Part shown: positions 26,209 to 50,876 of the stretch, piece after piece | Position numbering within the stretch: the first letter of the stretch is position 1 | Layout of the letters: each line of letters opens with the position of its first letter | DNA from: Elusimicrobiota bacterium | GTDB lineage: Bacteria > Elusimicrobiota > Elusimicrobia > UBA1565 > UBA9628 | Direction: 5' to 3' | DNA length: 64,000 bases | Assembly (NCBI GenBank): GCA_016234805.1 | Contig: JACRNU010000030.1 | Location: 91,406 to 155,405, forward strand | Notes under the pieces: generated by a model | What the model was told of the DNA's origin: nothing | Databases searched by the model: none | The model's input: only the letters and a program-made list of their open reading frames with translations | Made by a program: the position numbers and the translations under genes

Positions 26209-26910
26209 TCAGCAGCCCCCAAGTCGCAAGCCTCCCCCACCCGAAGGAGAGCCCTTTAGGGCAGGGGGAGGCGCGCAGTCGTGGAGACCCGTCTTGCTTA
26301 GAAGGGCTTCGACTCTTTTCAGGATCAGCCGTCGCAGGTCCTCAAGCGGCATGCGGCCGTTCACGAGGACCGTCCCGGGCTCGGTGCGGGAGAGACTGCG
26401 ATACGCGTCGCGGACCTTCTTCCTGAAGGCCGAGCCCTCGCGCTCGATGCGGTCCAGCCGACCCCTGGGCCTCGAGCCGAACTCGCTCTCCGGGATGTCG
26501 AGCACCAGTGTCAGGTCCGGGACCAGGCCGAAGGAGGCCACGCGGTTCAAGGTACGGACCACAGGCAGGCCCAGGCCGCGGGCGCAGCCCTGGTAGGCGA
26601 GGCTCGCCATGGCGTAGCGCTCGCTGACGACGATCTGCCCGCGCTTGAGCGCGGGCAAGATAGTCTCGTGGGTGTGTTGCGCCCTTGACGCTTCGTAGAG
26701 GAACAGCTCCGCCAGAGGCACGATGTTCTGCTTGGGGTTGAGAAGGATGCGCCGCACCGCCTCGGCCAGGGAGGTCCCCCCTGGTTCCCGCGTATGGATG
26801 ACGTCCAGGCCTCGTCCGCGCAGGCTGCGGACGAGGAGAGCGGCCTGCGTGGATTTCCCGGATTTATCCGGACCTTCCAGCACGAGGAAGAGGCCTGCCC
26901 GCGGTGGCAT
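26209..26910 (-). CDS. tmk: Thymidylate kinase
   Basis: Phosphorylates dTMP to dTDP. FLVLEGPDKSGKSTQAALL is the P-loop, THTREPGGTSLAE-like IHTREPGGTSLAEAVR the DR/E-P-G-G substrate motif, and VVSERYAMASLAYQG the dTMP-binding DRY-like segment (ERY here). The ATG at 26910 is preferred because it overlaps the preceding pilin stop as TGATG; a start at 26940 would add an unconserved stretch. The last ~20 residues contain ALKGSPSGGGG, encoded by a dispersed 25-bp repeat, and are not part of the normal fold. Confidence 0.93.
   Translation of the reverse strand: MPPRAGLFLVLEGPDKSGKSTQAALLVRSLRGRGLDVIHTREPGGTSLAEAVRRILLNPKQNIVPLAELFLYEASRAQHTHETILPALKRGQIVVSERYAMASLAYQGCARGLGLPVVRTLNRVASFGLVPDLTLVLDIPESEFGSRPRGRLDRIEREGSAFRKKVRDAYRSLSRTEPGTVLVNGRMPLEDLRRLILKRVEALLSKTGLHDCAPPPALKGSPSGGGGLRLGGC
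26231..26271 (-). repeat. In-frame palindromic coding repeat, copy A
   Basis: The 25-bp core (26238-26262) read on the minus strand contains GCCCTAAAGGGC, then TCT, then CCTTCGGG. Complementary arms CCTCCCC/GGGGAGG flank it, so the whole 41 bp can fold. It encodes ALKGSPSG at the C-terminus of Tmk. The core is identical to copies at 44708-44732, 45371-45395 and 50451-50475. Confidence 0.9.
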
Positions 26911-28238
26911 CAGTTCGTGCAGGTCAGCCAGCTCGGCCACTGCCGCTCAGGCAGGTCCTTCCAGGACTCGCGGGTGAGGATCACGCTCGTGGTCTTCATG
27001 TAGTCGCCCGCGTCGTCCCAGTAGTAGAGGTGGAGGGTGTTGGGCGTGACCGTGACCGTGCCTACCACATAGAAGGCCCCGATCATGTCCGCTCCGCCAG
27101 CGCCGCCGATCTGGTTCAAGTTGCCGCCCACGTAGGTGAAGCCCTTGACCATGATGTTGTTGAGGCATTTGTACCTGCCTGCCGCGGACTTGTAGGGTGA
27201 GGTGATGCCCGGGAAGCTCGCTGGAGCGTCAGGGTCGACCGCGGTCGGCGCCCCGCCGCAGGTCATGACCATGTCGCGGTACTGGGCCCATGCGGCCGCG
27301 GTCCTCCCGTACTGCTTCCAAGCCTTGCGGGGCAGCTCCGCGTGCTCGTCTCCGTAGCCCGCGTTGCCGTTGGGAAGGGTCATGTTGCCGGTCACGATGA
27401 GCCTGCCCTGGACGAAGACCTTGCCCTCGATGCACAGGTCCCCCTGGATGTAGTAGGTCTTGTCCGTCTTGCACGAGGTGGCGTCCGAGCAGGTCATGCT
27501 GCAGGCCACGCCGCAGGCAGTGCCTGAGTTCTTGCCCCAGCACTGGTTGCCGACGAAGAGGGTGCCCGAGGAGACCGCGTCGAAGTAGAAGCCGTCCACG
27601 TCGATGCCCGGGTCCGAGGGGATGTCCTGCTCGTAGGAGTGCCAGCCCACGCAGGCCGAGTCGCAGTTGGGCTGGGCGGAGCCGTTGGTGTCGAGGTCGA
27701 TGCTTCCCGCGCTCCAGAACTGGGGGTATTCCCGGGCGTTGACCGTGAGGCTGTTGGGGGAGATGACCGCTCCCCAGTTGACGTCGGTCTGGGAGCCGTC
27801 CAGGACCACCCCGGACTTGCCGTAGACCGCGGTGTCGCCCAGGGGCGAGTTGGTGTAGATGGCCTGGATGGCGCGGGCCTCCTTGCCCGCGGCCTGCTTG
27901 GAGATGGAGATGACCGTGGCCTGGTCCTCGTCCGGGCCGCTGGAGATGCCGATGGCGTAGCAGCCGCCGGTCATGTCCGTGTAGACCTGGTTGAAGTTGT
28001 AGCCCGCGGGGATGGTCCCGGCCATGGCCGCGGCCCAGGTCGTGGTGCTCTCGGAGACCTTGCGGTAGCCGCGGTCGATGCCTCCCTCGGCGAGCTGGAA
28101 GGCGGCCATGTTCTGGGTCTGCTTGACCGACCACTTCGCCTCGTTCTGGGTATAGAGGACCATGACCGGCACGATCACGGCCAGGACCAGCATGAGGAGG
28201 ATGACGCCCACCAGGACCTGCCCACGCCCGCTCTTCAT
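26910..28238 (-). CDS. PilX-like pilus assembly protein with Cys-rich exported domain
   Basis: A 442-residue protein. The N-terminal hydrophobic stretch QVLVGVILLMLVLAVIVPVMV resembles the single transmembrane helix of PilX/minor-pilin proteins, followed by AAFQLAEGGIDRGYRKV, the helix that often follows. The rest is a Gly/Thr/Tyr-rich exported domain with several Cys (CDSACVGW, CWGKNSGTACGVACSMTCSDATSC) able to form disulfides. Bactofilin-like IEGKVFVQGRLIVTGNMTL occurs in the middle. Third of three prepilin-like genes in a row, overlapping the gene before by 1 nt. Confidence 0.7.
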   Translation of the reverse strand: MKSGRGQVLVGVILLMLVLAVIVPVMVLYTQNEAKWSVKQTQNMAAFQLAEGGIDRGYRKVSESTTTWAAAMAGTIPAGYNFNQVYTDMTGGCYAIGISSGPDEDQATVISISKQAAGKEARAIQAIYTNSPLGDTAVYGKSGVVLDGSQTDVNWGAVISPNSLTVNAREYPQFWSAGSIDLDTNGSAQPNCDSACVGWHSYEQDIPSDPGIDVDGFYFDAVSSGTLFVGNQCWGKNSGTACGVACSMTCSDATSCKTDKTYYIQGDLCIEGKVFVQGRLIVTGNMTLPNGNAGYGDEHAELPRKAWKQYGRTAAAWAQYRDMVMTCGGAPTAVDPDAPASFPGITSPYKSAAGRYKCLNNIMVKGFTYVGGNLNQIGGAGGADMIGAFYVVGTVTVTPNTLHLYYWDDAGDYMKTTSVILTRESWKDLPERQWPSWLTCTN

Positions 28239-28747
28239 CAGTTCATGATCCTCACTTTCTGGATGGAGAGCTGCAGGGCTTTCCTGCGCTGCAGGTAGGT
28301 CGGGGCATGCATCGTGACCGCGACCGAGATGATGCTCGGGTCGTAGGTCGCGGGATAGGAGAAGGAGAGATAGGCCAGCCGGTTCGAGAGCGTGGTCGTG
28401 ACCACGGTGGCGCTCGACAGGATCATCTTGAGGTTCTGGCCGCTCTGGTAGAAGGTCACGGTGCCGCCCTTTTCCGGGGTGAAGCTGATGCGCGAGTAGG
28501 GAGGGTCGGTGACGGAGTACTGGTCGATGGTGACCGAGGACGCCTTGGCTTGGCGCAGGTAGCGGTTGACGGTCTCCAGGCAGATGCGCACGTCCCGCTC
28601 GATCTCGTTGCGGGCCGTGGTGAGCCTCCAGAAGTTCGTCATCTGCAGCATGATGGGCGCGGCCACGGACGCGAGGATGCAGACGATGCCCACGGTCATG
28701 AGGGCTTCGGTGAGGGTGAAGCCCCGATTGCGGAGGCGTCTTCTCAT
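28238..28747 (-). CDS. Prepilin-like protein with type IV N-methylation motif
   Basis: A 169-residue protein with a classic prepilin N-terminus, RNRGFTLTEALMTVGIVCIL, where prepilin peptidase would cut after Gly and methylate Phe; Glu5 of the mature protein is present. The remaining domain is beta-rich and resembles PilW/GspJ-type minor pilins. The start at 28747 overlaps the giant pilin stop by 4 nt (ATGA). Confidence 0.85.
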   Translation of the reverse strand: MRRRLRNRGFTLTEALMTVGIVCILASVAAPIMLQMTNFWRLTTARNEIERDVRICLETVNRYLRQAKASSVTIDQYSVTDPPYSRISFTPEKGGTVTFYQSGQNLKMILSSATVVTTTLSNRLAYLSFSYPATYDPSIISVAVTMHAPTYLQRRKALQLSIQKVRIMN

Positions 28748-31503
28748 GGCCAAGTCCCCGAGAAGTCGATGTTGGCGGTGGTCGCGCCCGCGGTCACGGA
28801 CACCTGGGCGGGCGTCTTGTCCTTGCGCTGGAAGGAGAGGGAGCCCGAGTAGGGGTCCGCGAGCGGATAGTAGGCCGCCATGTAGTAGGAGCCGGCCGTG
28901 ACCTCCAGGTTGTAGGTGCCGTCCGATTGGCTCGACACCGAGAAGATCGGGTCGGCCAGGCCGGGCGCGGTCACGCCGGAGATGGCGGGCGGAGGATCGC
29001 TGATGGTCCCCTTGCTGGCCAGCAGGAGCACTCCGGTCGTGATGACGCAGTTCGCGTTGGTCGAGCACAGGGCGTCGGACTTGACCGAGCCCGTGATCCT
29101 GCCCATGCCGCCGCTGACCGTGACCGTGCCCACGAACACGTTGCTGCCCGTGGAGGCGAGGGACGCGGTCATGGGAGACGGGGAGCTGGTGTAGGCCTGG
29201 CCGGAGGCCAGGACAGGCGTGACCGTGTAGGTGAAGGCCGAGGTCGAGGCTCTGATGTAGAAATAACCCGAGGGGTCGGAGTAGCTCTCGTAAGCGGCGC
29301 CGGTCCGGACCGCCTTGGCCACCACGTTGGGCAGGGCCCCGGTGCCTGTGGTGACGTACCCCATGATGACTCCGGACTGGGCCAGGTGGAAGGCCGGGAT
29401 GGTCTGAACCTCCCCGATGCTGAGGGTGGTGGATTGGGAGTCCGGGGAGTAGCTCGCGTTGTCCGTGCTGTAGTTGGCCGTGACCGTGACCGTGCCGCTG
29501 GTGGTGTTCAGGAGGTAGAACCCGTTGGAGTTCGTGCGGCCCGTGACCCCTGATGCCCAGACCAGCAAGTCGTTGAGGGGTGTCCAATAGGCGGTGTCGG
29601 CTCCGTAGACATAGCCCTGGACGAAGCCGCCCGTGGAGGCTGATGTGAGCCGGGTATTGTAGTAGCCGGATGCGGTCCAGGAGGACACGGTGCTGGCGTC
29701 CGGGATGTAGTAGGTCGCGCCCTGGGTGATGGCCACGGTGCCGATCTGGAGCATGTAGGCTCCGGAGGAGACGGTGATGGTCCAGGTCCCGGTGGTCACC
29801 CCTTCGATGAAGATGTCGGCGCGTTCGTTTCCGGTGTCAGGGCTCACGGGATACGCCTGGGAGGCCAGGGAGTAGCCGTCCGGCGCCGCGGCAATGGCGC
29901 CGTGGGCAGGCTTGCCCGCCACCGGCCTCTTCCAGTCATAGGCGTTCGGGTAGACGGTGGTCCCGTCCGAGGCGTTGGCGTAGACCGGGAGGCTGTAGTC
30001 GTCGAGCATGGCCACCATGTAGCGGAAGTTCGAGGCATTGTTGTCCGTGTCGTACGCCGGGCCGTAGGCGGCCTTATAGTCGTTCGGCTCGGTCATGCGC
30101 ACGATGGCGTCCCCGTCCTTCAGGCCATCGGCGTATGTCGGTTGGCAACCAACGGTCCTTTCCGTCAATGCCTCAGGGGCCGTCAGGCCGCCTGTCCTCC
30201 AGGCCACCCGATCCACGTAGACGCCGTTGTATTTGATGCCGATCCCGCCGGGCTGGGCGGTCTGACACCAAGCGCATTGAGCGGGCGGAATATCGACGTA
30301 TTCCTTGATGACGTTCCTGTAATCGTAGGTCCAGTTGTCGAACCCGTTCGCGATGAATTGGGCGTTGGTCCCGTACACCGCGTCTGCTGTCCGTGTGGAG
30401 CCATGGATGCTGATGGGCGTGGTGCTCGCGATCAGGAAGTAATGGTTGGGGCGGAGCGTATTGTTGGTGAAGGCCAGCGGGATTGTTTTGGGGACCGACC
30501 AGTCCTGGTTTCCGTAGAGGATCTGGAAGTTCGTGGAGTCCAGGGTCCAGGTGAAGGTCGTGGGGTTGTAGAGCTCGACGTACTCGACATCCCTTTCGTT
30601 GAGGGGGAGGGGAGCGGCAAGGGTTGCTACATCGTGCAGTGTGCGGTAGCCGGCATCGTCGCTGCCCGGGTCGTCGATGTAGGCTCCGGTGCCGGCCACG
30701 ACCTGGCTGATGACGATGCTCGTGGACATCCACACCGAGGTCTTGAACGCGCCTGTGGCGATCGCCACCATGGCATTGCCTGCTGTGAAGTCCGCGGTGC
30801 CGAAGCCCCCGCGGGGAGCCGAGATGTTCGTCCTAATCTGCTGGTAATAGCCGGTGGAGGAGGCGATGACGGAATAGGTGCCCCTGGACACGGTGAAGGT
30901 GTAGGCGCCGGCGGAGTCGCTGACCGCGGTCCAGTTCGGGTTGCCCACGACCTCGACCACGGCCCCGGTGAGGGCGCCTCCCACGGCTTTGTTGACCGTG
31001 CCGCGGATGCCTGAGTCCATGCCCGTGGCCGCGGGGTTGGCCAGCAGGTTCTTGATGGTCAGCATCTTGTTGTTGTGGCCGTCCTCCCACATGAGGTAGA
31101 CCGTGATCTGCTTCAAGCCCGTGTCCACGGAGGCGTAGGAGACGGTGGTGATCTGAGTGCCCGCCATCTCGGCATAGGCCACGTGGGTCGCGCGGGTGAA
31201 CACTGGGTAGCCCCACATGCTGACCGTCTCGGGGACGTAGGTGACGTCGTCGTATTCGACGCCGTGCGTGGAGTTGACGGCCGTGTGCGTGGTGACGAGC
31301 ATCTGGAAGTAGGAGTAGTTCTTCATCACCTCCATCTTCTCCTGGATGAGGTTGTTGGCCAGGGTCCGGGTGCGGGAGGTGTGGATGGCTTTGGTGATGT
31401 AGCTGAAGCTGCTCATGCCCGCGATGGCGATGACGGTCATGATGGTCATGGCCACGACCAGCTCGACCAGGCTGACGCCGCGGGATGACTGTAATCGTTT
31501 CAT
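28744..31503 (-). CDS. Giant prepilin-like protein with lamin-tail-like and carboxypeptidase-regulatory-like domains
   Basis: A 919-residue protein. SSRGVSLVELVVAMTIMTVIA is a type IV prepilin signal (cleavage after Gly, Glu5 present). Around residues 170-235 lies a carboxypeptidase-regulatory-like beta-sandwich (GTVNKAVGGALTGAVVEVVG). Around 265-470 a segment reads like a lamin-tail domain: IVISQVVAGTG, VEYVELYNPTTFTWTLD, LRPNHYFLIAST. More regulatory-like repeats follow (GFVQGYVYGAD, GVIMGYVTTGTGALPNVV, GRITGSVKSDA). Ordinary pilins are 120-200 residues, so this is probably a pilus-tip or surface adhesin. ATG 31503 is chosen since it gives the short leader usual for prepilins. Confidence 0.75.
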   Translation of the reverse strand: MKRLQSSRGVSLVELVVAMTIMTVIAIAGMSSFSYITKAIHTSRTRTLANNLIQEKMEVMKNYSYFQMLVTTHTAVNSTHGVEYDDVTYVPETVSMWGYPVFTRATHVAYAEMAGTQITTVSYASVDTGLKQITVYLMWEDGHNNKMLTIKNLLANPAATGMDSGIRGTVNKAVGGALTGAVVEVVGNPNWTAVSDSAGAYTFTVSRGTYSVIASSTGYYQQIRTNISAPRGGFGTADFTAGNAMVAIATGAFKTSVWMSTSIVISQVVAGTGAYIDDPGSDDAGYRTLHDVATLAAPLPLNERDVEYVELYNPTTFTWTLDSTNFQILYGNQDWSVPKTIPLAFTNNTLRPNHYFLIASTTPISIHGSTRTADAVYGTNAQFIANGFDNWTYDYRNVIKEYVDIPPAQCAWCQTAQPGGIGIKYNGVYVDRVAWRTGGLTAPEALTERTVGCQPTYADGLKDGDAIVRMTEPNDYKAAYGPAYDTDNNASNFRYMVAMLDDYSLPVYANASDGTTVYPNAYDWKRPVAGKPAHGAIAAAPDGYSLASQAYPVSPDTGNERADIFIEGVTTGTWTITVSSGAYMLQIGTVAITQGATYYIPDASTVSSWTASGYYNTRLTSASTGGFVQGYVYGADTAYWTPLNDLLVWASGVTGRTNSNGFYLLNTTSGTVTVTANYSTDNASYSPDSQSTTLSIGEVQTIPAFHLAQSGVIMGYVTTGTGALPNVVAKAVRTGAAYESYSDPSGYFYIRASTSAFTYTVTPVLASGQAYTSSPSPMTASLASTGSNVFVGTVTVSGGMGRITGSVKSDALCSTNANCVITTGVLLLASKGTISDPPPAISGVTAPGLADPIFSVSSQSDGTYNLEVTAGSYYMAAYYPLADPYSGSLSFQRKDKTPAQVSVTAGATTANIDFSGTWP

Positions 31504-31526
31504 TAATAGGGATTCCAGCACTATGA

Positions 31527-31555
31527 AGTATAGGTGGTTTTTTCCTCCAAATCAA
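31527..31555 (-). promoter_or_regulatory. Sigma70-type promoter of the prepilin-tmk-holB-metG operon
   Basis: On the minus strand TTGATT (31555-31550) and TATACT (31532-31527) are separated by exactly 17 bp, placing transcription start near 31520, about 17 nt before the pilin ATG. A perfect palindrome GTGACGCCAGTCAC lies ~25 bp upstream (31580-31593) and could be a regulator site. Confidence 0.65.
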
Positions 31556-31702
31556 GCGAGGGGGCGGTGTGACAAAAGTCCGTGACGCCAGTCACATTGT
31601 CAGTGCGTGTCAGTGAGCCCCTGGCGCCGCGGTCCGCCCTTGGCGCCTGAGCGACTCCTTGAACGCTCAGGCACCAGGGGAGAGGAGGACGACCTGCCCC
31701 TG

Positions 31703-31754
31703 GCCCATCCGACCCCCTTCCGGGGCTTGTCACGAAGAGGGGGATCGGATGGGC
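31703..31754. terminator. Strong hairpin downstream of nrdJ (possible terminator)
   Basis: GCCCATCCGA (31703-31712) pairs perfectly with TCGGATGGGC (31745-31754), extended inward by CCCCC/GGGGG with one bulged A. It starts 10 bp after the nrdJ stop on the minus strand and also precedes the pilin operon. There is no T-run, so it may be a transcript-end stabiliser or a factor-dependent terminator. The remaining ~240-bp intergenic stretch holds the pilin promoter and no gene. Confidence 0.5.
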
Positions 31755-31763
31755 GCTATCGGG

Positions 31764-34316: not shown

Positions 34317-34351
34317 TGGTTGTGTCCCTCCGGCTGAAAGTGTAAGAGAGT

Positions 34352-34379
34352 TTAACACAGGCCGGGCTCAGGCTGTCAA
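34352..34379 (-). promoter_or_regulatory. Sigma70-type promoter of nrdJ
   Basis: A perfect -35 TTGACA (34379-34374) and TGTTAA (34357-34352) with 16-bp spacing on the minus strand, upstream of the nrdJ ribosome-binding site. No cobalamin-riboswitch-like leader fits in the short space to the start codon. Confidence 0.6.
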
Positions 34380-34489: not shown

Positions 34490-34501
34490 CCCGTTCCCCT
34501 G

Positions 34502-34527
34502 CTGGTGTCAGACATTGCGTAACTTGC
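34502..34527 (+). repeat. Left inverted repeat of the transposase element
   Basis: 26 bp beginning CTGGTGTCAGACATTGCG; the exact reverse complement of 35535-35560. It contains the last codons and stop of the transposase. Confidence 0.9.
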
Positions 34528-35404
34528 GTTCGTGGGACGCTTCGCGGGGTCGGACTGCCCTGGAAACGAAAGAGCAATCGCGCTTTAAGAATGCAGCGAT
34601 GCGCGATGGAATGATGCCGTGGCCTAGGGCGCGAGTGGCCAGAAGCCTTCGGGCCTGGGCCAAGTGACTGGTCCTGCTTGGGCCGACTAGGGCGTCCAAG
34701 GGCACACCCGTTTCGAGGCAGGTTTGCCGCGCGAGATTCGACAGGTGTTCCAGGGGGTCTTCATCATGGGTGGGAAGGATGCGTTCTGTGTGGTCGTTCG
34801 GTAGGAGAGTCGTCGTCGAGGCATCGAACGGGTCGGGTGCATTGCGGCAGTCAGCCAGTCCCGCATGGACAAATTCTCGGTAATGGCTTCTGGCGAGGTC
34901 GAGCCGTGCATCGAACATCTCCAGCGGGAATCGTGGGTCGATTAGCGTAGGCTGTGCGGTTCCAAGGAGTTCGCTGTGTCCTGACCATGGCCAGTCCTCC
35001 GGTCGCGCAACGCATCCGGCTCGGACAGGATTGAGGTTGATGTAGCGGAGCAGTTGCAGGAAGTAGGCGTCGCTTGTGCATGAGAGCGACTTGAAGCGAT
35101 CCCTGAACAGGTGGCCTTTGCGGTTGTGTCTCCAGTTGAAGCGCCGTGAGTGGCAGGAAAGGAGCCATTGCATCGTCTTGGAAATCGGTGCGGCCGCGGG
35201 TTCCACCAGCAGGTGCAGGTGGTTGGAGAGAAGGCAGTAGGCATAGACTTTGCAGGCGAAACGGTCTTTGGCCGATTCAAGGAGGCTGAGGAAGTCCAGG
35301 TAGTCTTCTTTCTGAAGGAAGATTTCCCCGTCATCGTTGGCGTGGGCCATGGCATGATGGATTCCTCCTATGATATGAGCTCGGGCAGGGCGTGGCATCC
35401 TCAA
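34508..35404 (-). CDS. REP-associated tyrosine transposase (TnpREP/RAYT, Y1_Tnp family)
   Basis: A 298-residue IS200-like single-strand nuclease. The HUH motif is in YCLLSNHLHLLVEP and the likely catalytic Tyr in LLRYINLNPVRAGCV. GHLFRDRFKSL is the region between them common to RAYT proteins. The C-terminal third, rich in basic residues (FLKRDCSFVSRAV), resembles the DnaA-like helix-turn-helix tail found in some members. RAYTs recognise short palindromic repeats; the flanking inverted repeats are its likely target. The frame is intact. Confidence 0.9.
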   Translation of the reverse strand: MRMPRPARAHIIGGIHHAMAHANDDGEIFLQKEDYLDFLSLLESAKDRFACKVYAYCLLSNHLHLLVEPAAAPISKTMQWLLSCHSRRFNWRHNRKGHLFRDRFKSLSCTSDAYFLQLLRYINLNPVRAGCVARPEDWPWSGHSELLGTAQPTLIDPRFPLEMFDARLDLARSHYREFVHAGLADCRNAPDPFDASTTTLLPNDHTERILPTHDEDPLEHLSNLARQTCLETGVPLDALVGPSRTSHLAQARRLLATRALGHGIIPSRIAAFLKRDCSFVSRAVRPREASHERKLRNV

Positions 35405-35534
35405 CTATATACGATTGACCCCCATGAAAAGTTCCCTTATGAAATGGAATATGAAATGGAATGGGCTGTGCGGGGGCCCGTGAAAAATTGGTGAGGCGGG
35501 TGATTGATTGCGGCAGCGTGGTCGGGCGGGTTAT

Positions 35535-35560
35535 GCAAGTTACGCAATGTCTGACACCAG
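35535..35560 (-). repeat. Right inverted repeat of the transposase element
   Basis: The exact reverse complement of 34502-34527. Its end is immediately upstream of the rplU core promoter, so element sequence occupies the -35 position of that promoter. Confidence 0.9.
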
Positions 35561-41630: not shown

Positions 41631-41636
41631 TGCATG

Positions 41637-42506: not shown

Positions 42507-42809
42507 ATGGAGAGGGTCAAGGTCCGCGGCCTCGGCCGCCTGGCGGCCGCGGTCTTGGGCGGGTGGGGCGCGCTCACGCTGCTCAAGGGCTTCTACGACC
42601 TCTTCATCGGCGAGCCTGAGGCCAACCTCTACTCTCCCGAGCCCTGGATGTTCGTGACCAGAGAGGCCTGGCTGCGCTACGGCGGCTTCGAGCTCGCCTA
42701 CGGCATCGCCTGCGTCTCCCTGGGTTGGGCCGCGCTGCGCTACAGCCGATCCCTCCCTGAGACGGTGGAGCGCGAGCGCCGAGACCAGGATTTCCAGCTG
42801 TTCGAGTAG
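42507..42809 (+). CDS. Small two-helix membrane protein, unknown
   Basis: A 100-residue protein with two hydrophobic helices (LAAAVLGGWGALTLLKGFYDLF and LAYGIACVSLGWAAL) and a charged C-terminal tail. No family recognised. It lies between rpsI and asnB, ending 3 nt before the latter. Start uncertain among GTG 42504 and ATG 42507. Confidence 0.6.
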   Translation: MERVKVRGLGRLAAAVLGGWGALTLLKGFYDLFIGEPEANLYSPEPWMFVTREAWLRYGGFELAYGIACVSLGWAALRYSRSLPETVERERRDQDFQLFE

Positions 42810-42812
42810 CGT

Positions 42813-44666
42813 GTGTGCGGCATCTGCGGCGTCTACAACCTCTCCGGCGAGCCTCCTGACCGGGGGGCCTTGGGCCGCATGCGCTCGGCCCTGGCCCACC
42901 GGGGCCCGGACGACGAGGGGGAGCACTTCGAAGGCGGCCTGGGGCTGGGTTTCCGGAGGCTCTCCATCCTCGACCTGGAAGCCGGGCACCAGCCCATGTC
43001 CACCCCGGACAAACGGCTGACCATCGTCTTCAACGGCGAGATCTACAACCACCTGGACCTGCGGCGAGGGCTCGCGGAATCCGGGGTGGCCTTCCGGACC
43101 CGCTCGGACACCGAGACCCTGCTCCACCTCTACGCCCGCCATGGGACCGGGGCTTTCCGCATGCTCAACGGGATGTTCGCCCTGGCTGTCTGGGACGCTT
43201 CCAGGCGCGAGCTCGTGCTCGCCCGGGACCCCATCGGGGTCAAGCCCCTCTACTGGCTCCACGAGGGAGACAGGGTCGTATTCTCCTCGGAGCTGAGGTC
43301 TCTTCTGGCCGGAGGGTTCGGCCGGGGCTGGGATCACGGCGGAGTCCTCGACTACCTGGCGTTCGCCAAGGCTCATGCCCCGCGGACCGTGGCAGCAGGG
43401 ATCATGAAGCTGCGGCCCGCGCATTTCCTGACCGTCAATCCCTCCGGCGTGCGCGAGGAGCGCTACTGGGCCCTGCCGGGCCGGCGTCCCCGGACGCCCC
43501 CGCTCAAAGAGGCGGTGGAGAGCCTTGACCGGATCCTGTTCGAGGCCGTGAAGGGCAACACCCTTTCCGACGTTCCCGTGGGGACCTTCCTGAGCGGCGG
43601 CGTGGATTCCGCCCTGGTCGCGGCCCTGATGACGCGGCACTTCGGCCCGGGCAAGGTGAAGACTTTCTCCGTGGGCTTCTCCGGCGCGGGCCGCGGCGTG
43701 GACGAGTCCGTCCATGCCCGCAAGGTCGCGGAGCACCTGGGCACGGACCACCACGAGCTCATCCTGCCGCAGGACGTGCTCTCCAGGCTCGACGAGTCCA
43801 TCGGACTGCTCGATGAGCCCATCGGCGACTCCGCCATCCTGCCCACCTTCCTGTTGGCCCGCTTCGCGCGCGAGAAGGTCAAGGTCGTGCTCACCGGAGA
43901 AGGGGCTGACGAGCTCTTCGGAGGCTACAACCGCTACAAGGCGGCGTGGCTGAGCGGAGGCTTGAAGTCCCTGCCCTCGTGGGCCGCGGCCCTGGCCGCT
44001 CCCCTGGCGCGGAGGCTCGGCAAGGGCCGGCTCTTCGACCTCATCCCCTTTGCGGACGCGGCTGCCTGGGCCCAGGCCCAGGCGCATGCCACGCCGGCCG
44101 AGCTCGGCGAGGTTCTGCATCCCGACTGGCGGCCCCGGCTCAGGCCGGGCGCGCCTGATTGGGCCGGAGGCTTCGACCGGATGGATGACCTCAATGACGC
44201 GCTCGGATTCGACTTGGCTACGGTCCTGCCCGACGCTCTCCTCATGAAGGCGGACAAGTCCACCATGCGGGCGAGCCTCGAGGCGCGGGTGCCGTTCCTC
44301 GACAAGCCCGTGGTCGAGTTCGCCGCGTCCCTGCCTGGCTCTCACAAGATCAGGCTCTTCAAGGGCAAGTACATCCTCAGGCGCGTGGCTGAGCGCTACC
44401 TGCCCGCTGATATCGTGTGGCGGCGCAAGCACGGGTTCATCGTGCCGTGGGAGTCCTGGGTGCGCTCGCCGGACAATGCCCTGGTCCGGGATCTCGTCTA
44501 CGGCAGGGGCTTCATGGAGGACGGCATCTTCGATGCGTCCCAGGTCAAGCAGAGGTACGAGAGGCTCGTCCAAGGCGATCGGGGCGTGGATGCGGGGCTG
44601 TTTTTTAGGATCGTCATCCTGGGATTGTGGGCTGAGTCTTTGAAGAAAGAAGGAGTTTCCCTATGA
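42813..44666 (+). CDS. asnB: Asparagine synthase (glutamine-hydrolysing)
   Basis: A 617-residue enzyme. The glutaminase domain starts with Cys2 (MCGICGVYN) and includes AHRGPDDEG, LSILDLEAGHQPM and NGEIYNH. The synthetase domain has the PP-loop FLSGGVDSALVAALM, VGFSGAGRGVDES and LTGEGADELFGGYNRYK. Both halves look complete, as in AsnB, rather than a lasso cyclase, which lacks a working glutaminase. GTG start. It overlaps the next methyltransferase gene by 4 nt. Such enzymes also occur in surface-glycan clusters, amidating sugars or peptides. Confidence 0.9.
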   Translation: MCGICGVYNLSGEPPDRGALGRMRSALAHRGPDDEGEHFEGGLGLGFRRLSILDLEAGHQPMSTPDKRLTIVFNGEIYNHLDLRRGLAESGVAFRTRSDTETLLHLYARHGTGAFRMLNGMFALAVWDASRRELVLARDPIGVKPLYWLHEGDRVVFSSELRSLLAGGFGRGWDHGGVLDYLAFAKAHAPRTVAAGIMKLRPAHFLTVNPSGVREERYWALPGRRPRTPPLKEAVESLDRILFEAVKGNTLSDVPVGTFLSGGVDSALVAALMTRHFGPGKVKTFSVGFSGAGRGVDESVHARKVAEHLGTDHHELILPQDVLSRLDESIGLLDEPIGDSAILPTFLLARFAREKVKVVLTGEGADELFGGYNRYKAAWLSGGLKSLPSWAAALAAPLARRLGKGRLFDLIPFADAAAWAQAQAHATPAELGEVLHPDWRPRLRPGAPDWAGGFDRMDDLNDALGFDLATVLPDALLMKADKSTMRASLEARVPFLDKPVVEFAASLPGSHKIRLFKGKYILRRVAERYLPADIVWRRKHGFIVPWESWVRSPDNALVRDLVYGRGFMEDGIFDASQVKQRYERLVQGDRGVDAGLFFRIVILGLWAESLKKEGVSL

Positions 44667-45400
44667 ATGCCGACCAGGGTCGGCCCCCCCAATCCTCGCC
44701 CCCCCGCGCCCTAAAGGGCTCTCCTTCGGGTGGGGGGGGCTCGGTGCTTGGGAGGCTTGCAAACTGGTATCAATCCTGGAAGACGCGCAGGAAGATGGAC
44801 CGGGTCTTCTCCAGGGGACAGGACCCCTACGGGTACGAGCGGCTTCCTTATGAGACGGGGCGCTTGAAAGCCATGGAGGCAGCCATCGGGGGCCGCCAGT
44901 ACCGGCACGGACTCGAGATCGGCTGCGCCGAGGGCGTGTTCACGGAGAAGATGGCTGCCAGGGCTGAGAGGCTCACCGCGCTCGACATCTCTCCTGTGGC
45001 GCTCGGCCGCGCCCGCCGCCGGCTGGCTGGACGGCAGGGCCTGGTGTTCGTGGAATCCGACCTGCGCGACTGGTCCGGTCCCGGCCAAGGGTCGTGCGAC
45101 CTCATCGTGGTGGGCGACGTGCTTTACTATATGGACAAGCCCATGGTCCAGGACTCCTTCGAAGAGGCGTTCGCTCGCATCCGCGGGTGGCTCGCCCCTG
45201 GGGGATTGCTGGTCCTGGCCCACGGCTTTGCCGGGCCTGACGAGCGCCGCGTGCGCGAGGGCTACCGCGAGCGCTTCGAGCGCCTCGGCCTGCGCCTGGC
45301 GGCCGAGGAGGCGGTGGGCGACCCCGCGGTCTCGGGCGGGGTGCAGTGCCTCGTCTCCGCGCTCTCGGAGGCCCTAAAGGGCTCTCCTTCGGGTGCCTGA
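44663..45400 (+). CDS. SAM-dependent methyltransferase with repeat-derived peptides at both ends
   Basis: A 245-residue protein. The catalytic part (residues ~50-235) has the NodS-like layout: LEIGCAEGVFTEKMAARA (motif I), LTALDISPVALGRAR and DLIVVGDVLYYM. Two copies of the dispersed 25-bp repeat are translated as ALKGSPSG: one at residues ~16-23, the other forming the last residues before the stop. Overlaps asnB by 4 nt and the phosphoribosyltransferase by 1 nt. Substrate unknown. Confidence 0.82.
   Translation: MNADQGRPPQSSPPRALKGSPSGGGGSVLGRLANWYQSWKTRRKMDRVFSRGQDPYGYERLPYETGRLKAMEAAIGGRQYRHGLEIGCAEGVFTEKMAARAERLTALDISPVALGRARRRLAGRQGLVFVESDLRDWSGPGQGSCDLIVVGDVLYYMDKPMVQDSFEEAFARIRGWLAPGGLLVLAHGFAGPDERRVREGYRERFERLGLRLAAEEAVGDPAVSGGVQCLVSALSEALKGSPSGA
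44708..44732 (+). repeat. In-frame palindromic coding repeat, copy B
   Basis: A 25-bp core identical to the other three copies, flanked by seven C on the left and eight G on the right that can pair. Translated as RALKGSPSGGGG near the methyltransferase N-terminus. Confidence 0.9.
45371..45395 (+). repeat. In-frame palindromic coding repeat, copy C
   Basis: The same 25-bp core, read as ALKGSPSG and followed by GCC TGA, so it forms the C-terminus of the methyltransferase immediately before the phosphoribosyltransferase start. Confidence 0.9.
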
Positions 45401-46038
45401 TGTTCCGCGATCGGCGCGAAGCCGGCCGTCAGCTCGCGGCCAGGCTCGGCCATCTCGCCAAGGACCGGCCCGTGGTGCTGGGCCTCCCAAGAGGCGGCGT
45501 TCCGGTCGCCTACGAGATCGCGGCCGAACTCAAGGCTCCGCTCGATGTCCTGGTGGTGCGCAAGCTCGGGGCTCCGCTCCAGCCCGAGCTGGCTGTGGGA
45601 AGCATCGCCTTCGGCCTTGAAGAGCCCATCCTCTACGAGGACCTCGTGGAGAGGCTCGCGGTCTCCAAAGACCACCTTTGCAAGGAGATCGAGGCCGGCC
45701 GCGCCGAAGCCGGCAGGCAGAACGAGCTCTTCAGGGAGGGCCGGCCCTTCCCGGACCTCAAGGGAAGGACCGTGGTGGTGGCTGACGACGGCCTGGCCAC
45801 GGGCATGTCCATGAAGGCCGCGCTCGAAGCCCTGCGCCGCCTCTCCGCAGGCCGGGTCATCGCGGCCGTGCCCGTGGCCGCGCCCGAGGGCCTCCGGGCC
45901 CTGAGCTCCCGGGCCGACGAGGTCGTATGCCTTTCCGAGCCATGGGATTTCATGTCCGTGAGCGGCTACTACGCGGACTTCGCTCCCACGCCCGACGCCG
46001 AGGTCATGTCCCTCCTCCGGGCGGCCCGGGAGCCTTGA
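45400..46038 (+). CDS. Phosphoribosyltransferase-family protein
   Basis: A 212-residue type I PRTase fold. The PRPP-binding loop is VVVADDGLATGMSMKAAL (DDGLATG), with VVLGLPRGGVPVAYEIA and LDVLVVRKLGAP upstream, the arrangement of the family often annotated as dienelactone-hydrolase-linked or erythromycin-esterase-linked PRTases. Substrate base unknown. ATG 45400 shares its A with the preceding TGA stop. Confidence 0.85.
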   Translation: MFRDRREAGRQLAARLGHLAKDRPVVLGLPRGGVPVAYEIAAELKAPLDVLVVRKLGAPLQPELAVGSIAFGLEEPILYEDLVERLAVSKDHLCKEIEAGRAEAGRQNELFREGRPFPDLKGRTVVVADDGLATGMSMKAALEALRRLSAGRVIAAVPVAAPEGLRALSSRADEVVCLSEPWDFMSVSGYYADFAPTPDAEVMSLLRAAREP

Positions 46039-46060
46039 TGAAGGCAAGTAGAAATACTCA

Positions 46061-46089
46061 TTGACAGCGTGTCGGGCTAATGTGATAAT
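46061..46089 (+). promoter_or_regulatory. Strong sigma70 promoter of the lipoprotein-caspase operon
   Basis: A perfect TTGACA (46061-46066), 17-bp spacer and TGTGATAAT with an extended -10 (GATAAT 46084-46089). Transcription would begin near 46097, giving a ~33-nt leader with GGAGG-like sequence before the GTG at 46130. Confidence 0.75.
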
Positions 46090-46129
46090 GCCCTGACTCA
46101 GCGATTCGAATCAGTTCCTGGAGGCGAGC

Positions 46130-46510
46130 GTGAAAAAAGCGAATATCGTGCTGGTCCTGGCCACGGGCCTGCTCCTGCCGTTGGCAGGCGCCGGGTGCAC
46201 CGTGATGCACATGTCCTATCCCGAGGCGCAGTCCCACTTCGACTATCCGAACAGCAACGTGACCCCAATGGGCCACGCGAAAGGCACGGCCACCACGGCG
46301 GGCATGATGCCGGCCATGCAGGACGCGGACCTCGAGGAGCAGGCCATCACCCAGGCCCTGGCCTCCACCGGGGGAGACCTCCTGGTGGACTACCACCTCA
46401 CGACCGACGTCAAGCTCATCCCTCTCATGTTCATCAACTTCTACACGACCACGGTGACGGTCGAGGGCACGGCGGCAAAGATGGAGATCGGCAAGCAGGT
46501 GCTGAAGTAG
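46130..46510 (+). CDS. Small exported lipoprotein-like protein (paralogue 1)
   Basis: 126 residues with a signal sequence (ANIVLVLATGLLLPLAGAGC; the Cys is a probable lipidation site although the lipobox is weak). The mature part has YPNSNVTPMG, LASTGGDLLVDYHL and VEGTAAKMEIGKQ, all of which recur in the next gene, so the two are tandem duplicates. No known family is evident. GTG start with upstream GGAGG. Confidence 0.65.
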   Translation: MKKANIVLVLATGLLLPLAGAGCTVMHMSYPEAQSHFDYPNSNVTPMGHAKGTATTAGMMPAMQDADLEEQAITQALASTGGDLLVDYHLTTDVKLIPLMFINFYTTTVTVEGTAAKMEIGKQVLK

Positions 46511-46536
46511 TTCGACCTTCGTCGAGGAGAATCTTA

Positions 46537-46920
46537 ATGAAATACATCAAAGCGTGGAATGTCGGCATCCTGGGCGCGGTCCTCGCCTCCGTGCTCCTTT
46601 CGGGCTGCACGATCAAGATGGCCGTCCGCAGGACCAGCACCAAGTTCGTCTACCCCAACAGCAACGTGTCGCCGCTGGGCCGGGTCAAGGCGAAGTCCCC
46701 GCAATCCTTCAGCATCTTCGTGCCGAAGTTCTTCGACGCCAAGCAGATCGACGAGCTCTCGGCCCAGGCGCTCGCGCAGAAGGGCGGCGACATCCTGGTC
46801 AACCCGAAGATCGTGGTCAAGACCATCCTCGTCCCGATCATGCTCCCCTTCATGTTCAGCTCCATGGAGATCGAAGGGACCGCGGCCAAGATGGTCATCG
46901 GCAAGCAAGAGCTCCACTAG
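46537..46920 (+). CDS. Small lipoprotein (paralogue 2)
   Basis: 127 residues with a good lipobox (VLASVLLSGC). YPNSNVSPLG, LAQKGGDILVNPKIVVKT and IEGTAAKMVIGKQ match paralogue 1. It precedes the caspase lipoprotein by 8 nt, in one operon from the 46061 promoter, so the three may act together in the envelope (inference). Confidence 0.7.
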   Translation: MKYIKAWNVGILGAVLASVLLSGCTIKMAVRRTSTKFVYPNSNVSPLGRVKAKSPQSFSIFVPKFFDAKQIDELSAQALAQKGGDILVNPKIVVKTILVPIMLPFMFSSMEIEGTAAKMVIGKQELH

Positions 46921-46928
46921 GCGAGCCG

Positions 46929-48149
46929 GTGCGTCGAGAACGGACGGGGGCCCTCCTCTGGGTCCCCGTCTGTCTTTTCCTGACGGGCTGCGCCACCATG
47001 GGCACGGGGCTCTCGCGCGAGCAGTTCGACCTCCTGCCGCGGCAGTCGCCGGACGCCGCTGAGGTCCTCCTCCTGCAGTCGAACGTCAACTGCCAGTTCT
47101 TCGTGGACTCGCAGCCTCTGGCCATCGGCAGGAGGGTCCGCATCGTCGTGACCAAGGCCAGCCACCAGGTGACCTGCAAGCCCGATGGGTACCGGGCCAA
47201 GGAGGAGTACCTCCAGCCTCCCTTCGACCCGAATTATCCCATCGGGTTCACCTTCCTTTTGGAGGACCGGCTCCCGGAGGGCAAGCCTGCGTCCGAGGGC
47301 GCCGCTCCCGCGGCACGGGTGGAGGAGGCGGTCATGCCCTCGGACGCGGATAATCCTCCCAGGACGCGGACCAAGGCCATGAAGGACGCGGCCGCGGTGG
47401 TCATCGGCATCGAGAAATACCGGGACCTTCCCAAGGTCGACTTCGCCGCCCGCGACGCCGAGACCGTGAAGCGCTATCTGGTGGAGTCCATGGGCTACCC
47501 GGAGGAGAACGTGGCCGTGCTCACCAACGAGAGGGCGACGCGCTCGGACCTGGAAGCCTATCTCGGGGCGTGGCTCAAGAACAACGTGACGCCGGGAGGC
47601 AAGGTCTTCGTGTTCTTCGCAGGGCACGGTTCCCCGGACCCGACGAACGGAGACGCCTTCATGGTGCCGTTCGACGGGAACCCCAGCTTCCTGAAATCCT
47701 CCGCCTATCCGCTCAAGAAGCTCTACGCTGACTTGGCCATGCTGCCCACCAAGGACATCCTGGTCGTCATGGATTCGTGCTTCTCCGGCGCGGGGGGGCG
47801 TTCCGTCATCGCCAAGGGCACGCGGCCCCTGGTCACCAAGGTCGATGATTCGGCGCCCGCAGACGGCATCGTGGTCCTCTCCGCGGCGTCTGGAGAGCAG
47901 ATCAGCTCCTTCTATCCGGACAAGCGTCACGGGATGCTGACCTACTTCTTCCTCAAGGGCCTCCAAGGGGAAGCCGACGGGGACCGCAGCGGGAGCGTCA
48001 CCTTGACGGAGCTCTACGACTACCTCAGGCCCAAGGTGACGCAGATGGCCAGGAAGCTCAACAACGTCGAGCAGACCCCGCAGCTCGCGCCTCCGGCGGA
48101 CCGGCTCGGCGACCGCGCCGGGATGACGCTTCTGGACCTGGCGCGCTGA
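46929..48149 (+). CDS. Caspase-like (peptidase C14) lipoprotein
   Basis: A 406-residue protein starting at GTG 46929, with signal and lipobox (LLWVPVCLFLTGC). Residues ~20-110 include a PEGA-like segment (NCQFFVDSQPLAIGRRVRI, CKPDGYRAKEEYLQPPF). The caspase domain starts at AAVVIGIEKYRDLP; probable catalytic residues are His233 (FFAGHGSPD) and Cys284 (MDSCFSGAGGRSVIAKG). It would act outside the cytoplasm, attached to a membrane. The frame is open further upstream, but only this start gives the signal peptide. Confidence 0.88.
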   Translation: MRRERTGALLWVPVCLFLTGCATMGTGLSREQFDLLPRQSPDAAEVLLLQSNVNCQFFVDSQPLAIGRRVRIVVTKASHQVTCKPDGYRAKEEYLQPPFDPNYPIGFTFLLEDRLPEGKPASEGAAPAARVEEAVMPSDADNPPRTRTKAMKDAAAVVIGIEKYRDLPKVDFAARDAETVKRYLVESMGYPEENVAVLTNERATRSDLEAYLGAWLKNNVTPGGKVFVFFAGHGSPDPTNGDAFMVPFDGNPSFLKSSAYPLKKLYADLAMLPTKDILVVMDSCFSGAGGRSVIAKGTRPLVTKVDDSAPADGIVVLSAASGEQISSFYPDKRHGMLTYFFLKGLQGEADGDRSGSVTLTELYDYLRPKVTQMARKLNNVEQTPQLAPPADRLGDRAGMTLLDLAR

Positions 48150-48163
48150 CCCGTAATCTAAGC

Positions 48164-48169
48164 TATAAT
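48164..48169 (+). promoter_or_regulatory. -10 box of a leaderless transcript
   Basis: A consensus TATAAT whose last base is followed by 6 nt and then the GTG at 48176, so transcription is expected to start at or very near the start codon. Confidence 0.5.
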
Positions 48170-48175
48170 CCCGCA

Positions 48176-48748
48176 GTGATATCCGGCGATTCCCTGCAGG
48201 AGCAGGCGCGGGCGTTCTCCGCTTTGGCCGACGCGGCCGCGCGTTTCTTCGCCGAGCCGTCGCAGGCCCAGGCAGGCATCGTGCGCGAGCACCTCGGGAC
48301 CTGCCGGACCAAGGCCGGGGCGGTGCGCAAGGGCGGGGGCAGGGACGGCCGCGAGGACATGATGGTCGTGTCGAGGCACCTTTCAGAGGCCGCTGTCCAA
48401 GCTGCCAAGGCTGTGGAGGAGTGCCTGTTGTTCAAGGTTTCAGCGGGCAAGCCGCTGTCCGCCACGCTCGAGTCCCTGCGCGACGCTGCCAAGGACCTGG
48501 ACCGTTCCGTGAGAAGCCTGGGCAGGGGCGGCAGGGAGCGCTGCGCGGATAGCGTCATCAGCGCGAAAAGGAATGCCCAGCAAGCCTCCAGGCTGGCGGA
48601 TGCCGGCGCCAACGAGGCTTTGCAGATCCCGAACACGGTTGAAAGCATCAAGTTCAAGGAGACGTTCGCCCGGCTCTCCCGGGCCGCTGACGAGGTCCAT
48701 CAGGCAGCGGACCGGCTGGGAGAGATGGCAGCGGTCGCTGATGATTAA
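48176..48748 (+). CDS. All-helical PhoU/DUF47-like protein
   Basis: A 190-residue, Ala-rich, all-alpha protein; regular heptads (DAAKDLDRSVRSL, ARLSRAADEVHQAADRLGEM) suggest a helical bundle. The C-terminal NTVESIKFKETFARLSRAADEV resembles DUF47/PhoU-like accessory proteins of phosphate transport, but no transporter is adjacent. GTG start without Shine-Dalgarno, 6 nt after TATAAT. Overlaps the 5'-nucleotidase by 8 bp. Confidence 0.6.
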   Translation: MISGDSLQEQARAFSALADAAARFFAEPSQAQAGIVREHLGTCRTKAGAVRKGGGRDGREDMMVVSRHLSEAAVQAAKAVEECLLFKVSAGKPLSATLESLRDAAKDLDRSVRSLGRGGRERCADSVISAKRNAQQASRLADAGANEALQIPNTVESIKFKETFARLSRAADEVHQAADRLGEMAAVADD

Positions 48749-50255
48749 ATTACTGTTCGTTTTGCTGGCTTTTTCAGTATATTCCTGGGCGGAGAACATC
48801 CGTGTCGCGGTGTGGCACACCAATGATGTCCACGGTTGGATGATGCCCCGTGAGGCATCATTCAACACCGCTGACCCCAAGAGGATGGTGGGAGGAGCCT
48901 CGGTCCTTGCCAGGGTCCTTGAGAAGGAGAAGGAACCCAAACTCGTCCTTGATGCCGGGGACTGGTATCAGGGCACGCCTGAAGGCACCCTGACCAAAGG
49001 CAAGGCCATGGTGGAGATCTACAATGCCCTCCATTATGACGCCATGGCGCCAGGCAACCACGAATTCGATTATGGGGTGGATAATGTAAAAAGCCTCATC
49101 AAAGGGCTCAAAGCACCGGTGCTGGGGTGCAACACTTATGACCTGAAAACCGGAAAAAGAGTCGATTTTCTCAAGCCTTGGATGATTAAGGAGGTGGCTG
49201 GGGTCAAGATCGGCATCTTCGGCCTGCTCACCACCAAGATGCCAAGGCTCGTGCTGCCCAAACAGTACCAGGGCCTTGAGTTCAGAAGGGAGGTCGACGA
49301 GGCCAAGAAAGCGGTCCGAGCCCTGAAGAAAGAGGGCGCGACCGTCATCATAGCGCTCAGTCACGCCGGGTTCGAGACCCCGGACAGGGAGCCTTTCGAG
49401 GGAGACCAGACCATCGCTGCCTCGGTGCCTGGCATCGATCTTGTCGTGGGCGGTCATTCTCATACTTTCCTTAGAGAGGCTGTTCGGGACGCGACCTATG
49501 GGACCCTGATCGTCCAAGCTGGGGCCAATATGTCCATAGCTGGCCGAACTTTGCTGGAAATCGACCAAAATACTAAAAAAGTAGTTAAGTCAGAAGACAA
49601 ATTGATTGACCTCTGGGTGGATGAGCACGGCCAGGATCCAGCCATCGCTGCCATCGTAGACAGGTACGTCAAGGAGGTCGGCCAGGTCCTGGAAGTCGTT
49701 GTGGCCACTGCGGCCACAGCGATTCCCCATAGCCGCACCATGACCGAGTCGCCCATGGGCGATTGGATGATGGATTGCGCCCGGGATTGGACCAAAACTG
49801 ATGTGGCCTTCCAGAACCCTGGGGGCATCCGGTCCGGCATCTCGGCCGGGCCGGTCACCCTGAGGCATATTTTCAATATCATGCCCTTTGAGAACACCAT
49901 GGTGAACATGACCATGACCGGCAGCCAGGTGCGGGACATCCTCGAGCGCGGGGCTTCGGGCAAAGGCTCGATGCAGCTTTCCGGGATGAGGGTCGTGTTC
50001 GACCCGTCCTTGCCCAAGGGAGGCAGGCTCGTGTCCGCCAGCGTCAACGACCGGGAGCTTCGGCCGGACGGGGCTTATACGGTCACTGCCGTGGATTTCC
50101 TCGTGGATGGAGGGGACGGCTACGACACTTTCCGCTCCGTGAAAAAGAAGGAGTATACTTACAAGTTGCTGCGCGACATCCTCGAGTGGTGCGCCCGCAA
50201 GCAGGGGACCTTGTCCGCCCCGGCGCCGGGACGCATCTGGGTCAAGGGAGGTTGA
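48741..50255 (+). CDS. Secreted 5'-nucleotidase / 2',3'-cyclic phosphodiesterase family (UshA-like)
   Basis: A 504-residue exported enzyme with a signal peptide (LLFVLLAFSVYSWA). The metallophosphatase domain has WHTNDVHGW (DxH), LDAGDWYQGTPEG (GD), PGNHEFDYG (GNHE), LSHAGF and VVGGHSHTFL (GHSH). The C-terminal substrate domain contains FQNPGGIRSGISAG and VDFLVDGGDGYDTF. It would remove phosphate from nucleotides outside the cell. The sequence is noticeably more AT-rich than its neighbours, hinting at transfer. It lies two genes upstream of the deoxyribose-phosphate BMC operon. Confidence 0.88.
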   Translation: MIKLLFVLLAFSVYSWAENIRVAVWHTNDVHGWMMPREASFNTADPKRMVGGASVLARVLEKEKEPKLVLDAGDWYQGTPEGTLTKGKAMVEIYNALHYDAMAPGNHEFDYGVDNVKSLIKGLKAPVLGCNTYDLKTGKRVDFLKPWMIKEVAGVKIGIFGLLTTKMPRLVLPKQYQGLEFRREVDEAKKAVRALKKEGATVIIALSHAGFETPDREPFEGDQTIAASVPGIDLVVGGHSHTFLREAVRDATYGTLIVQAGANMSIAGRTLLEIDQNTKKVVKSEDKLIDLWVDEHGQDPAIAAIVDRYVKEVGQVLEVVVATAATAIPHSRTMTESPMGDWMMDCARDWTKTDVAFQNPGGIRSGISAGPVTLRHIFNIMPFENTMVNMTMTGSQVRDILERGASGKGSMQLSGMRVVFDPSLPKGGRLVSASVNDRELRPDGAYTVTAVDFLVDGGDGYDTFRSVKKKEYTYKLLRDILEWCARKQGTLSAPAPGRIWVKGG

Positions 50256-50258
50256 GCC

Positions 50259-50876
50259 GTGCTCCAGAAAGCCAAGGCAGAGGTCGAATACTGGTTGAGA
50301 GTCGTCAAGAGGGTCGTGGGCTTTCTCATGGTGTGGGGCCTGATCTTCAGCCTCGTGACCATCGCCAAGCTCGGGGTGGCCTTCGATTACGACGACACCC
50401 TGGTCTTCTCCACGCCGGCCTACGAGAAGGCCTTCGCTTCCGCGCCCCAGGCCCTAAAGGGCTCTCCTTCGGGTGCCATGAGCCGGCAGTTCTGGTCCGT
50501 GGTCAACCAGGCATACGATCTGGAGAGGCCCAAGATCGTGCCGCTCTCAGCGGCCTGGCTCTTCCGCGTCCTCGGGTTCAGGGTGGCCATCCTGGCTTCC
50601 CGGCCGGACACGGACGGGGAAGCCCTCAGGAAGGAGTGGCGCAGGCTCGTGCCCAAGCCGCGCTTCATCTTCGCGGGCGATGGGGCCGATAAGCGCCGCC
50701 ACCTCGAGGACGGCAACTTCGTGCTGTATTTCGGGGACTCGGACATGGACATCTCCGAGGCGCGCAAGGCCAGCGTGTTCCCGGTCCGCGTCAAGCGCAG
50801 TCCGCAGTCGTCCTACAAGGAAGACTACCACCCTGGCACGATGCGCGAGTTCGTGCTTCCCCTGTCGCAATACTGA
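50259..50876 (+). CDS. HAD-superfamily phosphatase (class B acid phosphatase-like) with inserted repeat peptide
   Basis: A 205-residue protein with an N-terminal hydrophobic anchor (VVGFLMVWGLIFSLVTIA). HAD motif I is FDYDDTLVFSTPAY, motif II ILASRPDTDG, and FGDSDMDISEA gives the motif IV acidic residues. The layout follows AphA-type class B phosphatases. Between motif I and the following FW helix, a 25-bp repeat inserts ALKGSPSG (residues ~65-72), apparently in a tolerant loop. GTG start 3 nt after the 5'-nucleotidase; the two may act in sequence. Confidence 0.75.
   Translation: MLQKAKAEVEYWLRVVKRVVGFLMVWGLIFSLVTIAKLGVAFDYDDTLVFSTPAYEKAFASAPQALKGSPSGAMSRQFWSVVNQAYDLERPKIVPLSAAWLFRVLGFRVAILASRPDTDGEALRKEWRRLVPKPRFIFAGDGADKRRHLEDGNFVLYFGDSDMDISEARKASVFPVRVKRSPQSSYKEDYHPGTMREFVLPLSQY
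50451..50475 (+). repeat. In-frame palindromic coding repeat, copy D
   Basis: Core identical to copies A-C and in the same reading frame (ALKGSPSG), here in the middle of a HAD phosphatase rather than at a terminus. Confidence 0.9.

Follow-up and report, generated by a model that had tools for sequence, protein, structure and literature searches.

A 24-bp repeat, probably mobile, that inserts precisely and without target duplication in an Elusimicrobiota genome

A 64,000-nucleotide stretch of the genome of an Elusimicrobiota bacterium (GenBank assembly GCA_016234805.1, contig JACRNU010000030.1, positions 91,406 to 155,405 of the forward strand; hereafter the window) contains four copies of a repeat unit of exactly 24 bp, GCCCTAAAGGGCTCTCCTNCGGGT. 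In the whole genome from which the window comes (G000; 3.42 Mb in 128 contigs, 92% complete) we found 43 near-identical units at 31 sites. Comparison with relatives showed the unit to be a recent, precise insertion that leaves no target duplication. The reading we favour is that this is a very small mobile unit which probably spread recently, by copy and paste, within one bacterial genome. At 24 bp it would be about the smallest mobile element on record.

Within the window there are four exact matches to the 23-bp core GCCCTAAAGGGCTCTCCTTCGGG, at 26240-26262 on the minus strand and at 44708-44730, 45371-45393 and 50451-50473 on the plus strand, where shuffles gave a chance expectation of none. 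An earlier sequence-only reading of the window had reported four identical copies in these places, and they are indeed identical over this core. It had given the repeat a length of 25 bp, which we correct to 24 bp, the 25th base being a G that belongs to the target and is found at all 31 sites. The copies and the palindromes around two of them are as follows (^ marks the insertion point; G001 is a relative of the same genus).

26239..26262, minus strand: copy A, 24-bp unit in the C-terminal tail of tmk (open reading frame (ORF) 26209-26940, minus strand; tmk by Pfam/NCBIfam), reading ALKGSPSG
26230..26273, minus strand: pre-existing GC palindrome CGCCTCCCC-CT^GGGGGAGGC whose loop holds copy A; forms lacking the unit are found elsewhere in G000 and in G001
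44708..44731, plus strand: copy B, 24-bp unit near the 5′ end of a methyltransferase ORF (44663-45400, plus strand), in the loop of a C/G palindrome
44694..44744, plus strand: palindrome CCTCGCCCCCCCGC^GGGGGGGGCTCGG enclosing copy B, from the sequence and the fold of the joined flanks
45371..45394, plus strand: copy C, 24-bp unit in the final codons of the methyltransferase ORF, which ends ...ALKGSPSGA*
50451..50474, plus strand: copy D, 24-bp unit within an AphA-like HAD phosphatase ORF (50259-50876, plus strand)

For copy B to be coding, the methyltransferase must begin at ATG 44663. Judging by the sequence this is a plausible start because it is preceded by AAGGAG, although codon scoring favoured 44795.

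Across the genome, 19 units lie on one strand and 24 on the other. Twenty sites hold a single unit, ten hold two and one holds three, and the arrays are head-to-tail with a period that is always 24 bp. A looser search of the genome revealed a sharp gap between the family (0-2 mismatches) and the background, and the family is therefore either young or very uniform. Nearly all variation falls on position 19 (N19; T in 28 units, G in 11 and C in 4), other positions differing in 1-3 copies each. N19 is the N of a cUNCGg tetraloop cap within the unit, which hints at RNA or hairpin structure. Moreover, 4 of the 11 arrays combine different N19 variants, suggesting that new units land next to old ones, unlike simple slippage, with point mutation as a further possibility. 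A long single hairpin formed by the unit was also considered and is disfavoured, as the N19 variants break its A7-T19 pair with no compensatory change. In a 333-kb sample taken around copies of the unit, no other repeat is comparably prominent.

The evidence for insertion comes from orthologous loci that lack the unit. The gap in G001 orthologues is exactly 24 nt at an intergenic hairpin (C24:45326), at C110:66013 and at window position 50451. At the protein level it is 8 aa at 50451, C110:66013 and C109:95081, and 16 aa at double sites in a subtilase (C40) and in RseP (C125). In total there are six exact empty sites for the host genome, differing by 24 or 48 bp. The 8 aa of copy D are absent from the orthologues of the AphA-like phosphatase in three relatives. 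No target duplication was seen at the empty sites or in the flanks of the 31 sites, and no donor flanks had travelled along with the unit at the six exact sites. A comparison of host proteins with insert-free orthologues had been proposed in the sequence-only reading, together with a search of the genome and its relatives; the former gave these exact 8- or 16-aa differences, the latter 43 units at 31 sites in G000, none in G001 and one in a further genome, G006.

The unit is thus absent from the same-genus relative, and of the 44 genomes of the family only G006, which belongs to another genus, carries it, in one copy. Among 235 genomes of the class the sole other exact match to the core is that in G006, the further matches having 1-2 mismatches and lying near background. 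When the genome_contigs collection (84,980 species) was searched, the pattern matched only the G006 contig and one unrelated archaeal contig, the latter a single site without the GGGT end that was taken as chance. No unit was found in the viral contigs searched. The G006 copy, GTCCTAAAGGACTCTCCTTCGGGT, lies in a gene that, named by eye from its sequence, is probably nuoN, and makes it exactly 24 nt longer than in four congeners (91-92% protein identity). This copy keeps the hairpin GCCC-TAAA-GGGC with a C-G pair of the stem replaced by a T-A pair (GTCC-TAAA-GGAC). The G006 record is a metagenome-assembled genome (MAG), and the host genome of the window is probably one also.

Insertion follows a target rule. 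The flanks carry G at +1 in 31/31 sites and C at -5 in 29/31, and the 21 sites without a following GGGG give C(19) G(10) G(15) G(15) N ^ G(21) C(14) C(14). This non-hairpin target, CGGGN^GCC, resembles the unit's own tandem junction, CGGGT^GCCC. Wherever flanks align, the flank motif is already present in the orthologues. At 8 sites the unit occupies the loop of a CCCC^GGGG palindrome, the commonest form of which, CGCCTCCCC-GY-GGGGGAGGC, occurs many times in G000 and G001 with no unit in it. Pre-existing palindromes with the unit in their loop therefore explain the extra C/G arms that had been noted on two of the window copies: the arms do flank those copies, but they lie outside the unit. Strong stems spanning the junction occur at 9/31 sites against 0.8% of 4000 genomic control sites that share the short motif, a 37-fold enrichment (p about 2e-12). 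GC skew is positive at 12 sites and negative at 19, showing no clear strand bias and being confounded by gene strand.

The palindrome also occurs in a family of leader hairpins in G000 and G001, in which CCCCC[AT]C and CGCCTCCCC-GY-GGGGGAGGC-TTGC are followed 3-5 nt on by an ATG (for example around the palindrome at L085, L089, L112 and L116, and also at L053:5315-5370). An ATG was present in 11 of 18 sampled palindromes, with an open frame of at least 60 aa in 10 of those 11. From their sequence these look like a genus family of 5′ hairpins that control translation, because the Shine-Dalgarno GGAGG sits within the stem. In the loci tested against Rfam only tRNAs matched, with nothing at the unit or the palindrome.

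Called genes contain 21 of the 31 sites and 10 are intergenic (22 and 9, respectively, if copy B at 44708 is coding). Thirteen of the 21 genic sites are in sense frame 0, reading ALKGSPSG, one is in another sense frame and seven are antisense in two open frames. The other-frame site is in PheT, where three units read PKGLSFGC..., and all seven antisense sites lie within 90 nt of a gene end. At interior sites sense frame 0 is used in 9/10 cases; target-motif sites within the same genes give a null of 14-26% of open readings, depending on the motif, and p is thus no higher than 5e-5 (2e-6 to 5e-5 for a null of 19-26%). The interior sites differ from those at gene edges (Fisher p 0.024), and stop-containing frames are used at 0/21 sites (p 1e-5 to 6e-4). 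The claim that the repeat always lies in genes, in one orientation and one frame, is therefore true of the four window copies and of 9/10 interior sites, but it fails genome-wide, where 9-10/31 sites are intergenic, seven are antisense and one (PheT) is in the other sense frame. Many intergenic copies or copies in other frames had been named beforehand as findings that would speak against it, and with 10/31 intergenic, 7 antisense and 1 in another frame they do so in part. The simplest reading is that the unit inserts in all readings and that selection then removes all but the mildest peptide from protein cores. The frame pattern thus seems to reflect which readings the genes could tolerate, and not a targeting of the insertions.

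Host genes encode unrelated proteins, including PheT, RseP, Tmk, biotin carboxylase, an RNase R-like protein, the AphA-like phosphatase and XdhC. Inserts occupy termini, linkers and positions following domains, and a few fall within a domain. The concatenated host-protein query comprised 1233 aa of 1338, one host fragment being absent. In the XdhC/MobA protein at L065:5838 (G000:C100) about 20 more residues adjoin the unit, many of them Gly or Ala, and are absent in the same-genus orthologue. The sense frame 0 peptide is short and hydrophilic, A L K G S P S/A/P G. Its commonest substitution, at N19, alters the amino acid (S, A or P), and therefore the peptide itself is not what is conserved.

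We compared the unit with known families of small repeats. Its closest counterparts in function are the small dispersed repeats (SDRs) of Nostoc and the GC clusters of yeast mitochondria. Elhai et al. (2008, Genome Res 18:1484), a study cited in PMC3116915 and PMC4390886, are said to have described SDR1-8 of Nostoc and relatives at 21-27 nt. The unit resembles these in size class, in its dispersal over genic and intergenic contexts and in recent mobility evident from exact empty sites. As to a secondary structure shared through compensatory changes, a further trait of SDRs, the unit offers one compensatory pair, which is not significant against shuffles. It differs in that its host belongs to another bacterial group, its target is like its own junction and a large share of its copies are genic and read in one frame. 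SDRs also insert inside other repeats: SDR5 inserts precisely within the palindrome HIP1 (PMC4390886), much as the unit lies in the loop of the GC palindrome. The yeast GC clusters, or fungal double-hairpin elements, are most commonly 32-42 nt with AG or ACT duplications at their flanks (PMC4478555). Like the unit they are short GC-rich hairpins with lineage-specific copies, and several start with ACTCCTTCGGGGT, very like the unit's CTCTCCTTCGGGT (PMC4478555). However, they are mitochondrial, mostly intergenic and flanked by duplications, whereas none of the 31 sites shows an AG or ACT duplication. The shared UUCG hairpin may be convergence.

The sequence-only reading had likened the repeat to the Rickettsia palindromic elements (RPEs), of other size and sequence, which stands as an analogy, orthologues lacking exactly 8 or 16 residues. 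RPEs are inserted in frame in unrelated genes (PMC10969869), as the unit is in PheT, RseP, AphA-like, XdhC and other genes. However, they are about 100-150 bp long and CGTC-tagged (PMC3733652), ending in CGTC and encoding longer peptides, whereas the unit has 24 bp, encodes 8 aa and has no CGTC. Repetitive extragenic palindromic (REP) sequences and REPINs are likewise small palindromic repeats, and the window contains a gene for a Y1 transposase of the REP type. In contrast to the unit, which is tag-free on both strands and genic at 21-22/31 sites, they are tagged GTAG/CGTC and mainly extragenic. The unit also forms direct tandem arrays, does not flank the REP-associated tyrosine transposase (RAYT) of the window, and its presence does not track Y1 genes. 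Neither the terminal inverted repeats nor the target-site duplication of miniature inverted-repeat transposable elements is present. As the unit fails the REP and RPE definitions (tag, size, extragenic habit), we regard it as a new variant of very small mobile repeats and a member of no tested family.

Four features of the movement were observed: precise addition of 24 nt, a target rule, a preference for hairpins and insertion next to existing units. In the mechanism we propose, the intermediate would be a short piece of single-stranded nucleic acid able to form a hairpin; it might be a circle of 24 nt or a strand that copies a single repeat period. Its junction sequence would pair with a target exposed as single-stranded DNA, in a hairpin loop or at a replication fork, where a strand-transfer enzyme encoded in trans would join it; self-adjacent insertion would then yield the 24-bp arrays. 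Since 24 is divisible by 3 and four of the six readings are open, insertion need not break genes, and selection would later clear most interior copies save those in sense frame 0. More tentatively, this could be a new type of transposition, in which an end-less 24-nt unit moves as a single-stranded hairpin or minicircle, its junction pairing to CGGGN^GCC-like sites or hairpin loops, by an enzyme belonging to none of the known transposase or reverse transcriptase classes, or by template switching alone.

Enzyme-free template switching, in which a stalled fork ending in CGGGN pairs with a donor junction, copies one 24-nt period and returns, would account for a target that resembles the unit junction on both sides and for the favoured hairpin loops. 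Any copy could be the donor (CxGGN flank on the left, CGGGT end), no dedicated enzyme has been linked to the unit, and array units can differ in sequence. However, it leaves unexplained why just one 24-mer spread widely, with no comparable repeat in the sampled sequence, and why G001 has zero copies despite the same palindromes; nor were donor flanks moved along at the six exact sites. We consider this explanation rather unlikely.

It is also unlikely, and somewhat more so, that the unit is a REP-like element mobilised by a RAYT, that is, a non-autonomous hairpin that a Y1 tyrosine transposase would cut and join in single-stranded form. IS200/IS605 enzymes insert on the 3′ side of a short conserved target and leave no target duplication, a mode that the unit's duplication-free insertion next to a short target matches. 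G000 has two Y1 transposase genes, and the one in the window (34508-35404, minus strand), 8 kb from copy A, is nearest to a REP-associated model. This gene lies between perfect 26-nt inverted repeats (window 34502-35560), but they are unrelated to the unit, which lacks the GTAG/CGTC tag and occurs mostly at genic sites. Moreover, Y1_Tnp matches number none in the copy-bearing G006 and three in the copy-free G001.

RNA-mediated spread has reportedly been suggested for the Nostoc SDRs. For the present unit, a transcript with a hairpin and UNCG tetraloop would be reverse transcribed and inserted. The variable base is the N of cUNCGg, an RNA-type hairpin cap, G006 keeps the first hairpin through a paired change, and an RNA-mediated origin is discussed for the GC clusters of yeast mitochondria that carry ACTCCTTCGGGGT (PMC4478555). 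However, no RVT_1 reverse transcriptase was found in the 92% complete genome and the single-unit fold is no better than shuffles, so that we give this route a low probability. Neither the Y1 nor the reverse transcriptase class therefore tracks the unit.

That ALKGSPSG is a useful peptide and the element a selected protein module would fit its reading at 13/21 coding sites and 9/10 interior ones, but is very improbable given 9-10/31 intergenic and 7 antisense sites, an N19 change that swaps the amino acid (S/A/P) rather than being silent, unrelated hosts and the existence of peptide-free orthologues. An assembly artefact, a chance repeat or a translational-bypass cassette can hardly be credited: the assembly is a draft in 128 contigs and yeast mitochondria have bypass elements of similar size, but zero chance matches are expected, many sites have orthologous sequence on either side, a separate second genome carries an insertion, unit variants differ, and skipping would tolerate stop-containing frames, of which there are 0/21.

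Several points weigh against our preferred reading of a recently spread mobile unit. Searches for the classes RVT_1 and Y1 did not identify a moving enzyme. The fold of a single 24-nt unit is unremarkable (RNA z -0.6, DNA z -1.4), the tandem and hairpin-embedded forms giving -2.4 and -3.3 as RNA and -3.0 and -3.2 as DNA. The compensatory pair in G006 is a single event, and covariation was not significant against shuffles. Both copy-bearing genomes are known from draft, probably metagenome, assemblies alone, and at 92% completeness a master locus could be missing from the searched one. Gene calls came from a homemade iterated codon model, with Pfam support for most hosts.

Elsewhere in the window, a caspase domain (PF00656) is found in three separate proteins within 57 kb (25-1056, 46998-48149 and 55601-57019), and ORF 60728-61744, which has no Pfam match, contains an array of near-identical 48-bp repeats.

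How elements of some 20-40 bp move in bacteria is an unsolved question. A young, nearly uniform family with exact empty sites and a readable target rule, present in two genera, makes models of such tiny mobile DNA testable. Moreover, the family shows essential proteins (PheT, Tmk, RseP) gaining short peptides in 24-bp steps, and the surviving copies reveal selection on both orientation and frame.

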